Shown here: positions 127 to 50,025 of the stretch, piece after piece | Layout: every line of letters begins with the position of its first letter | Numbering within the stretch: position 1 is the stretch's first letter | Assembly (NCBI GenBank): GCA_004366385.1 | Contig: SIRU01000019.1 | Coordinates: 1-64,000 of the forward strand | Source of the DNA: Actinomycetota bacterium | GTDB taxonomy: Bacteria > Actinomycetota > Thermoleophilia > Gaiellales > Gaiellaceae | DNA length: 64,000 nucleotides | Reading direction: 5' to 3' | The notes under the pieces: model-generated | Seen by the model: only the letters and a program-made list of their open reading frames with translations | Database searches by the model: none | What the model was told of the DNA's origin: nothing | Position numbers and translations under genes: made by a program

Positions 127-1752
127 GTGGCGATCGAGAAGCTCCTCGTGGCGAACCGCGGCGAGATCGCGCTTCGTGTCTTCCGCACGTGCCGCGAGCG
201 CGGGATCGGGACGGTGGCGGTCGTCGCCCCCGACGACGCGGGCTCGCTGCACGCGCGCTCGGCGGACGAGGTGGTGGAGATCGCGAGCTACCTCCACTCG
301 GAGGAGCACATCCGCGCGGCGGCGGCGGTGGGCGCGGACGCGATCCATCCCGGGTACGGGTTCCTTGCCGAGAACGCGGCGTTCGCGGCGGCGGTGGAGG
401 CGGCCGGGCTCACGTGGGTCGGGCCGCCGGCGGCGGCGCTGCGGGCGGGCGGCGACAAGCTCGAGGCGAAGCGGATCGCGCGCGAGGCCGGTGTCCCGAC
501 GCTGCCGGAGGGCTCGGCGGACGAGATCGGCTTCCCGCTCGTCGTCAAGGCGGCCGCGGGAGGCGGCGGGCGGGGGATGCGGGTCGTGCGGGCCCGCGAG
601 GATCTGGAGGACGCGCTCGCGGCGGCTGAGCGCGAGGCGGCAGGGGCGTTCGGCGACGGGACCGTCTACCTCGAGCGCTACCTGGAGCGCCCTCGGCACG
701 TGGAGGTGCAGCTGCTCGCGGACGCGCACGGGAACGTGGTCGCGCTCGGCGAGCGCGACTGCTCGGTGCAGCGGCGGCACCAGAAGGTGCTCGAGGAGGC
801 GCCGGCGCCGGGGCTGGCTCCGGGTGTGCAGGCGGCGCTGTGGGAGGCGGCCGTGGCGTTCGGGCGCGCCGTCGGGTACAGGAGCGCCGGGACGGTCGAG
901 TTCGTGCTCGAGGGCGACGCGTTCTTCTTCCTCGAGCTCAACGGCCGGATCCAGGTCGAACACCCGGTCACGGAGGCGGTCACGGGCCTCGACCTGGTCG
1001 CGGAGCAGCTGCGCGTGGCGGAGGGGGAAGCGCTTGTGGCTCTGAGCCACAAAGTGGACGGACACGCGATCGAGGCGCGGGTGTACGCCGAGGATCCGCA
1101 GACGTTCCTTCCGCAGACCGGAAGCCTCGAGCGGCTTCGGCTGCCCGCAGGGGCAGGTGCTCGCGTAGATGCGGGGGTCGAAGAGGGCGACGAGGTCGGG
1201 CTCGGCTACGACCCGATGATCGCGAAGGTCATCGCGCACGGTCGCTCGCGGGAGCACGCGCTCGAGCTCCTGGCCGCCGCGCTAGCCGAGACCGAGATCT
1301 CGGGCGTGGTGACGAACCTCCCCTTCCTGCGCTGGCTCGTCGGCCACCCGGTAGTGCGGGCGGGCGAGGCGACGACGGCGTTCCTCGTGGAGCATCCGCC
1401 GCTGTCGCCTCTCCCGCTCCGGCTCGCCGACGGGCCCTGGCGCCGTCCGTGGCGGTTGAACCTCCCGGCACCTGCTCCCGCGCCGCCGCCGGACGTCGAC
1501 GCCGAGGCCCGCGCGCACACAGCGACCCACGGCGGCAGCTCGACGGTGACCGCGCCGATGCCGGGGACGGTGCTGTCGGTGGCGGTCGAGCCGGGCGACG
1601 AGGTCGAGGCCCGCCGCGCGCTGGTCGTGCTCGAGGCGATGAAGATGGAGATCCCCGTGCACTCGCCGTTCGCGGGGACGGTGGCCGCGGTGCACGTCTC
1701 CGCAGGCGACCGCGTGGCCGGCGGCGCCCCGCTAGTCGAGCTCGAGAGCTGA
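127..1752 (+). CDS. Acetyl/propionyl-CoA carboxylase alpha subunit (biotin carboxylase + biotin carrier)
   Basis: A 541-residue protein starting at GTG. It should carboxylate its own biotin with ATP and bicarbonate and pass the carboxyl group to a separate carboxyltransferase subunit, giving malonyl-CoA or methylmalonyl-CoA. The N-terminus (KLLVANRGEIALRVFRT) and the ATP-grasp signature (RDCSVQRRHQKVLEE, then IQVEHPVTE near residue 275-285) define biotin carboxylase. A C-terminal biotinyl domain carries EAMKMEI with biotin Lys506. The protein is shorter than the usual 650 or more residues because the BT linker domain is missing or very reduced. ELNGRIQVEH has Gly where ELNTR or MNTR is usual. 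A palindrome is embedded in the coding region around residues 303-309. No carboxyltransferase gene is in the window. Confidence 0.93.
   Translation: MAIEKLLVANRGEIALRVFRTCRERGIGTVAVVAPDDAGSLHARSADEVVEIASYLHSEEHIRAAAAVGADAIHPGYGFLAENAAFAAAVEAAGLTWVGPPAAALRAGGDKLEAKRIAREAGVPTLPEGSADEIGFPLVVKAAAGGGGRGMRVVRAREDLEDALAAAEREAAGAFGDGTVYLERYLERPRHVEVQLLADAHGNVVALGERDCSVQRRHQKVLEEAPAPGLAPGVQAALWEAAVAFGRAVGYRSAGTVEFVLEGDAFFFLELNGRIQVEHPVTEAVTGLDLVAEQLRVAEGEALVALSHKVDGHAIEARVYAEDPQTFLPQTGSLERLRLPAGAGARVDAGVEEGDEVGLGYDPMIAKVIAHGRSREHALELLAAALAETEISGVVTNLPFLRWLVGHPVVRAGEATTAFLVEHPPLSPLPLRLADGPWRRPWRLNLPAPAPAPPPDVDAEARAHTATHGGSSTVTAPMPGTVLSVAVEPGDEVEARRALVVLEAMKMEIPVHSPFAGTVAAVHVSAGDRVAGGAPLVELES
1034..1052. 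repeat. Palindrome family C, copy 1 (inside carboxylase gene)
   Basis: TTGTGGCTCTGAGCCACAA has two perfect 9-base arms around one central base. An identical element apart from the central base occurs at 42198-42216. Here it lies within the biotin carboxylase coding region and is translated as VALSHK, at a point where homologues vary in length between the ATP-grasp and the GHAIEAR motif. Confidence 0.8.
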
Positions 1753-6362: not shown

Positions 6363-6385
6363 ACGGTGTCAGACACCGTGTCTAG
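6363..6385. repeat. Palindrome family A, copy 3, in a 247-base gap
   Basis: ACGGTGTCAGACACCGT followed by GTCTAG, 53 bases after the ETHE1-like gene. Twenty-one bases (GGTGTCAGACACCGTGTCTAG) are identical to the copy at 47306-47326. The rest of the gap 6311-6557, between convergent genes, shows no gene; the sequence after the repeat (CTGGCATCTGC onward) has no evident coding signal. Confidence 0.85.
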
Positions 6386-14932: not shown

Positions 14933-15055
14933 GGCGCGGAGCCTACCCGCAGAGACCGAGCCGCTCGGCGACACCCGAGAGACCGCCCCCGCACGTCACC
15001 GAGGACTGCGACGCGCACCGCTCACTCGACCGGCTCGAGGGTCGCCGGGCAACGC

Positions 15056-15074
15056 AAGTTACAACTTGTAACTT
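15056..15074. repeat. Palindrome family B, copy 1
   Basis: AAGTTACAACTTGTAACTT has 9-base arms around a central C. It ends eight bases beyond the atpC stop codon in the gap before the MBL-like gene, so it may mark the 3' end of the atpDC transcript. The same core recurs at 49945 and, with one mismatch, at 50011. Confidence 0.85.
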
Positions 15075-15082
15075 GGAGTGCC

Positions 15083-41344: not shown

Positions 41345-42214
41345 TCAATCGGCCGAAGCGGCCACGCCCTCGACGACCCGGTCCCGGCCGGACAGGTCCT
41401 TCGTGACCGTCACCTCCGAGTAGCCGAGCTCGCGGAGAAGACCCGCGACCCGCCCGGCGTCGCCGGCCGCGACCTCCAGGACGAGCGCGCCGCCGGGCCT
41501 CAGCGCCGTGCGTGCGCTCTCGGCGATCGCCTCCGTCGCACCCTCGCCGACGAGCGCCTCGCGCGGCTCCCAGTCGCGCACCTCGGGCTCGAGTGCGTCG
41601 ATCTCCGACGGGATCACGTACGGCGGGTTGGAGACGACGAGGTCCCACGGGCCGGCGGGGACGCCGGCGAGGAGATCCGCCTCGAGGAGCTCGACCGCGA
41701 GGCCGGTGCGCGCGGCGTTCTCACGCGCGATGACGAGCGCGCCTGCGGAGGCGTCCAACCCCGTGACCCTCGCGCCCGGGTGCTCGTCCGCGAGCGCGAG
41801 CGCGATGGCGCCGCTGCCCGTGCCCACGTCGAGCGCCCGCGGCGCGTCGAGCCCCGCGATGCGCGCGAGCGCACGCTCGACGACGATCTCGGTCTCGGGC
41901 CGCGGGACGAGCACCCGCGCGTCCACGAGCAGCGTCAGCCTGCGGAACCCCCACTCGCCGAGCACGTACGCGAGCGGCTCGCGTGCCTCGCGCCGGACGA
42001 GCAGCCGGTCGAGCTCGGCGGCCTCGCCCTCGCCGAGCTCGCGTCGCCCGTCGGCCCGCACCCCGCTCCGCGTCGTCCCGAGCACGTGCGCAAGCAGGAG
42101 CTCCGCGTCGACCTGGGCCGACTCGATCCCGGCGGCCGCCAGCCGCCCCTGGGCGACCTCGAGCGCCCCGGCGGCCGTGACAGCCGCCGACCCCGCCTTG
42201 TGGCTCAGAGCCAC
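41345..42214 (-). CDS. prmC: Release factor glutamine methyltransferase
   Basis: A 289-residue SAM enzyme that methylates the GGQ glutamine of release factors. It has the DVGTGSGAIALALA SAM motif and catalytic VVSNPPYVIP. It starts at a GTG with an AAGGAGG ribosome site, 13 bases after prfA, its substrate gene. The start codon and first codons (VALSHK) lie in palindrome family C, which may hide the start in a hairpin. Confidence 0.95.
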   Translation of the reverse strand: MALSHKAGSAAVTAAGALEVAQGRLAAAGIESAQVDAELLLAHVLGTTRSGVRADGRRELGEGEAAELDRLLVRREAREPLAYVLGEWGFRRLTLLVDARVLVPRPETEIVVERALARIAGLDAPRALDVGTGSGAIALALADEHPGARVTGLDASAGALVIARENAARTGLAVELLEADLLAGVPAGPWDLVVSNPPYVIPSEIDALEPEVRDWEPREALVGEGATEAIAESARTALRPGGALVLEVAAGDAGRVAGLLRELGYSEVTVTKDLSGRDRVVEGVAASAD

Positions 42215-42216
42215 AA
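42198..42216. repeat. Palindrome family C, copy 2 (over the prmC start codon)
   Basis: TTGTGGCTCAGAGCCACAA, 9-base arms around one base. It matches the element at 1034-1052 apart from the reverse-complemented centre. On the minus strand it contains the GTG start of prmC and encodes VALSHK. Confidence 0.85.
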
Positions 42217-49944: not shown

Positions 49945-50025
49945 GTTACAACTTGTAACGTGGCGTCCTCCCGGCCGATTGCCGCTCCCTGAGCCGTTAC
50001 AGGAGAGCTGGTTACGAGTTGTAAC
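49945..50025. repeat. Palindrome family B, copies 2 and 3
   Basis: GTTACAACTTGTAAC (49945-49959) is perfect; GTTACGAGTTGTAAC (50011-50025) has one mismatch. Both share the core of the element at 15056. They lie in the 176-base gap between convergent genes ending at 49913 and 50090; nothing else was recognised there. Confidence 0.8.

Follow-up and report, generated by a model that had tools for sequence, protein, structure and literature searches.

Lineage-specific REP-like palindromes in Gaiellaceae occupy orthologous codons and may be rewritten in place

The sites of MatP (matS), SlmA and Noc comprise tens of short palindromes in coding as well as intergenic DNA; in number and placement they resemble the repeat reported here, family C, which is more exact and for which we observed no macrodomain-like restriction. 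REP and REPIN elements with their RAYTs are likewise short dispersed palindromes, with several classes per genome, doublets, some intragenic copies and an intergenic bias to gaps between unidirectional and convergent genes (PMC2817692, PMC3116915, PMC3733652). Turnover of REP classes together with RAYTs is known (PMC3686654), intragenic in-frame REPs have been described, and two Xanthomonas species are reported to carry different REPs at roughly one position in recB (PMC3733652). Unlike REPs, family C has a nearly perfect dyad around one central base, its doublets mostly do not alternate by centre base as in REPINs (inverted doublets), and replacement of one dialect by another at the same codons, without indels, is frequent. 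Rickettsia palindromic elements (RPEs) are also palindromic repeats translated within conserved protein genes, but they are insertions of 105-146 bp adding tens of residues (PMC2229807), whereas family C covers 19-27 bp and usually leaves the length the same. The DNA uptake sequences of Neisseriaceae share with it lineage dialects, permissive coding positions and avoidance of one frame because of a stop codon; they differ in having ~1900 copies, against about 20-60 per genome here, and in not being single perfect palindromes (PMC3630211). Insertion is the usual explanation for short palindromic repeats; in the present case exact palindromes differ between species at orthologous codons without any indel, which makes the renewal and replacement of repeat families directly testable by alignment.

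The stretch of DNA analysed (the window) has 64,000 nt and corresponds to positions 1 to 64,000 of contig SIRU01000019.1, assembly GCA_004366385.1, from a soil actinobacterium whose genome (2.73 Mb, 63 contigs) is coded G000. It carries two family C copies (Table 1) and no near-miss at up to five mismatches, and in shuffled windows the palindrome is expected 0 times. The first copy forms codons 304-309 (GTG GCT CTG AGC CAC AAA) of a 541-aa protein matching PRK12999 (1.7e-174) and related profiles, the best being those of biotin carboxylase and pyruvate carboxylase, with carrier-domain profiles at 447-540; the genome consensus of the footprint fits its right arm (AAAGTG) but not its left flank (GCGC). 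In the second copy the palindrome includes the GTG (42214-42212) that is the first possible start codon of prmC, with AAGGAGG at 42225-42219, 4 nt upstream. Both copies are exact and read in the same phase, and the first-pass annotation, which had proposed that one palindrome gives VALSHK in the carboxylase, immediately before GHAIEAR, and at the PrmC start, is borne out. No Rfam family matched the window. The 19-mer was absent from viral contigs and the surrounding 91 bp matched no plasmid, on which grounds a phage or plasmid origin was rejected. A literature text search for the motif strings gave no occurrence.

Table 1. Palindromes and host genes, with coordinates
Feature	Position	Strand	Remarks
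Family C palindrome, TTGTGGCTC-T-GAGCCACAA	1034..1052	+	perfect, 9-bp arms, 1-nt centre; read as (L)VALSHK
Full footprint of this copy per genome consensus, (G/C)AC(C/T)TTGTGGCTCTGAGCCACAA(A/G)GT(G/C)	1030..1056	+	
Carboxylase alpha-type gene (biotin carboxylase and C-terminal biotin carrier domain)	127..1752	+	palindrome in loop before GHAIEAR
Second family C copy	42198..42216	-	coding-strand sequence identical to 1034-1052
prmC (peptide chain release factor glutamine methyltransferase)	41345..42214	-	TIGR03534, 241 bits, 1e-71
Dialect B palindrome, CAAGTTACAA-C-TTGTAACTTG	15055..15075	.	same superfamily
Further dialect B core	49945-49959		
Family A palindromes, (A)CCGGTGTCnGACACCGG	1767-1785, 1919-1937, 6363-6379		

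The exact 15-bp core, GTGGCTCnGAGCCAC, is present 57 times in G000 and the reversed pattern 0 times; the two copies noted in the first-pass annotation are an undercount. Within the 690 kb around these sites, that is, regions selected for holding exact cores, the 57 exact cores are accompanied by no one-mismatch and four two-mismatch cores, the latter equal to the reversed control, and a whole-genome search with ≤3 mismatches across 18 positions returned 58 sites only. The core frame is 19 bp and the element extends up to 25-27 bp (footprint ~27 bp); beyond the core the two arms vary mostly independently in G000. A simple purpose-written gene finder places 25 copies inside genes and 32 between them, with ~92% of the sequence coding and ~8% intergenic, and copies in coding and intergenic DNA are found on both strands. 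Most intergenic copies lie between unidirectional or convergent genes, and 28 of the 32 are not between divergent genes. The genic copies use two of the three frames, 11 being read as VA(L/Q)SH(K/E) and 14 as (S/C/R)GSEPQ, while none of the 25 uses the third (WL-stop/WLRAT, with a TGA stop); the palindrome supplies the GTG start codon in three copies. Two paralogous cyclase-domain genes (L113:17999, L124:5318) hold it at the same loop position. Some loops do tolerate VALSHK and a canonical V-A occurs at a few sites, yet the probability that the peptide recurs by chance or through protein-level conservation is practically negligible, given the shuffles, the reversed controls, two peptides read from one DNA sequence and the intergenic copies. 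This also removes the chance pair that the first-pass annotation had named as its own refutation.

In footprint size and copy number (REPs being ~20-40 bp with many copies), as in its placement, family C behaves as a REP. Y1 transposase genes (PF01797) were searched for in G000 and 36 relatives and their flanks scanned for palindromes; none of the three loci in G000 and 28 in the relatives is flanked by the family C core, and an association of the core with RAYTs was rejected on this basis. Its oriented flanks show no conserved tetranucleotide past arm position 13, i.e. no unpaired GTAG/CGTC tag. Family A, GGTGTCnGACACC, lies on both sides of two of the three Y1 (RAYT-like) genes in G000 (L016, L017) and flanks one in G010 (L161), and looks like a RAYT-linked REP. 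Alongside the third locus (L018) there is a 45-bp palindrome, CGCGCAGGACATGTCCAGGGTCTGACCCTGG..., at 1944-1988, and GGGGTCnGACCCC-type palindromes are found near Y1 loci L160, L167 and L171. With 57 copies, family C is also far below the thousand or so, or more, per genome of uptake sequences, and its internal VALSHK sites keep their length where RPEs are in-frame insertions of 100-150 bp. Since it lacks the tag and RAYT of REPs and has neither the size of RPEs nor the number of uptake sequences, we call it REP-like and do not file it as a REP.

The first-pass annotation had taken the shared hexapeptide as a sign of repeats inserting in frame and contributing a tolerated peptide; such mobile repeats would resemble RPEs. 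In codon alignments with five genomes of the same genus and as many as 30 relatives, orthologues from the genus and the family that lack the palindrome at the carboxylase loop have no codon more or fewer there, which refutes insertion at 1034-1052. Palindrome-free orthologues are equal in length also at six further internal VALSHK/VAQSHK sites; CofD is unchanged in length across 30 genomes, TrpC in a comparison with G006 only, and RmlD, ArgS, TilS, an Lhr-like helicase and a phosphoglycerate-mutase-like protein have the same length in some or all orthologues without the C core. No indels are seen at the conserved motifs VAxCY of CofD and VALTRAEWDV of RmlD. Net gain is confined to hydrophilic linkers, most clearly in a MoaD-MoaE fusion: the core comes with 9-14 extra residues in G000, G003 and G005, and both are absent from G006, G007 and G010. 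The other case is one acyltransferase-like linker (5 aa, seg 20). For such linkers in-frame insertion could survive, and in-frame use in 25 genes agrees with it; as a general explanation it is improbable, considering the unchanged lengths and an element of 19 to 25-27 bp that is not obviously a codon multiple, and for the VALSHK sites it appears mostly wrong. Nor does VALSHK behave as a donated unit, the peptide becoming LVTTCYK, LATDCCK etc. as the DNA dialect changes. What stands of the earlier interpretation is a dispersed repeat translated in unrelated proteins at tolerant loops and termini; its in-frame insertion does not. In genes, the alignments suggest that the palindrome usually took over existing codons with protein length kept.

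All dialects have a common outer CTTGT..ACAAG frame; written out, the superfamily is ~CCTTGTnnC..GnnACAAGG with a length of 19-27 bp, and its members stand alone or as doublets. The inner stem varies by lineage, with one or a few dialects in each; an active dialect has exact copies, and orthologous sites are common to several species. Family C counts are 57 in G000, 44 in G019, 25 in G022, 23 in G006 and 13 in G032, with few or none elsewhere; GTGACACnGTGTCAC predominates in G005 and is frequent in G009 and G004, GTAACAGnCTGTTAC is found in G024 (about 29) and others, and TTGTAACGATCAGTTACAA in G001 (about 20). In G005, where other dialects dominate, family C is represented by decayed copies (3 exact and 5 one-mismatch). 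G000 has, in addition, ~21 copies of dialect B, GTTACAAcTTGTAAC, counted with a degenerate pattern. Order-level outgroups carry essentially no dialect copies. When GTDB genomes were scanned for the 19-mer, 47 stretches came up, almost all from actinobacterial, Thermoleophilia or Gaiellaceae MAGs.

Different palindromes were found on the same codons. At the carboxylase loop, with the same centre base, G007 and G005 have GTAACAAcTTGTTAC, G009 has GCAACAGnCTGTTGC and G030 has GTAACAGcCTGTTAC (dyad pairs 9/9, 8/9, 9/9 and 9/9, respectively). In CofD, GTAACAGaCTGTTAC stands in G007, G009 and G019 (8/9 pairs) at the position of GTGGCTCtGAGCCAC in G000. The cyclase loop carries GTGACGAtTCGTCAC in G003, GTAACAGtCTGTTAC in G007 and the C core in G005; at the E2 linker, the GrpE-like N terminus, TilS and helicase sites, too, palindromes of other dialects share the centre. 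Symmetric double changes are seen in G003 (GTCGCTCtGAGCGAC) and G006 (GTGACTCgGAGTCAC). Of 87 orthologue sites that could be aligned and lack the C arm, 19.5% show a dyad of ≥7/9 pairs against 0.6% of 7345 control windows from the same genes, and 9.2% against 0.08% have ≥8/9; these cases come from roughly nine out of about twenty sites, and because orthologues share ancestry the true number of events is below these figures.

Different palindromes at the same codons suggest that sites are rewritten in place and are not simple insertions. From these alignments we infer in-place rewriting, either by hairpin replacement, which we prefer, or by selection on recognition sites. Our main reading, to which we give a probability of roughly 45%, is that a Gaiellaceae-restricted superfamily of REP-like palindromes occupies long-lived sites rewritten in place by a dyad-specific factor. 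This factor, most likely a single-strand processing enzyme of REP/IS200 type, would recognise existing palindromes or near-matches and impose its own sequence on them through hairpin replacement, so that one wave of elements would overwrite the sites of the previous wave; VALSHK-type peptides would be by-products tolerated in two reading frames. We count for it the exactness in G000 (57 to 0 one-mismatch cores), the same-centre dialect swaps and dyad excess, and also the lineage dialects, empty outgroups, intergenic excess, symmetric double changes and doublets. Against it are the lack of a transposase beside family C and of a GTAG/CGTC tag, the unrelated doublet interiors of G000 and G024, the non-independence of orthologues and the fact that the compared genomes are mostly draft MAGs. 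A further point against it is that the CofD palindromes coincide with a VAxCY motif that is ordinary in the wider family, so an earlier palindrome is not required at every site.

Pairs of palindromes 54-134 bp apart are frequent in several genera, with the same centre-base orientation in most pairs. On UBA5186 contigs the doublet interiors have 12-22 bp in common (E-values to 6e-7), which suggests a mobile doublet in that group. In G000 and G024 the interiors are unrelated, which speaks against a conserved mobile doublet there.

A plausible contender, if on the doubtful side, is that the palindromes are recognition sites of a dyad-binding protein, such as a chromosome organiser like those acting on matS or like SlmA and Noc, or an uptake-type motif with dialects; copies would then arise in place from near-matches through point mutation, driven by selection or by uptake-biased recombination, with the dialect following the protein. 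The absence of indels at the CofD and RmlD motifs fits this, as do the per-lineage dialects, the mostly independent arm variation and the occurrence on both strands in coding and intergenic DNA. So does the core-likeness of palindrome-free orthologues, of which 30% at sites in the VALSHK phase (phase 0) match the core at ≥8/14 against 3% expected; this may reflect perfection of near-matches in place, but also decay. Total exactness is unusual for binding sites, ~60 copies are far below uptake sequences, and the doublet spacing and partly shared UBA5186 interiors speak against recognition sites. In the complete G006 chromosome the 23 cores lie at 164-2007 kb of 2622 kb, with dnaA at 56 kb; the large core-free gap lies asymmetrically to the origin, and no clear pattern favours a model of ori/ter domains. 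In the same chromosome centre T is on the + strand in 18 of the 23 cores, and for the part from 164 to 1212 kb in 13 of 14; a polarity with replication is possible, at a significance below that needed for a claim.

Returning to rewriting by a dyad-specific factor, such an enzyme, if it exists, would represent a previously unknown sequence-writing activity, while sites that bind a protein would make up a dispersed recognition system not known before, in a deep lineage of actinobacteria. A broader proposal is that Gaiellaceae possess a sequence-specific system, acting across the genome, that rewrites short palindromes where they stand, essential genes included, so that every site of a genome has the same dialect and all change it jointly between lineages. 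It is tentative and on present data rather unlikely; if true, short sites would evolve in concert with no insertion involved.

In the G000 regions examined we also noted two more recurrent palindromes, GCGAGGC-AA-GCCTCGC (7) and CCCACCC-A-GGGTGGG (4). In G001 several of the pairs are tandem duplications that include the flanks, and TTGTAACGATCAGTTACAA forms tandem arrays of 57-131 bp at L344, L345, L346 and L347.
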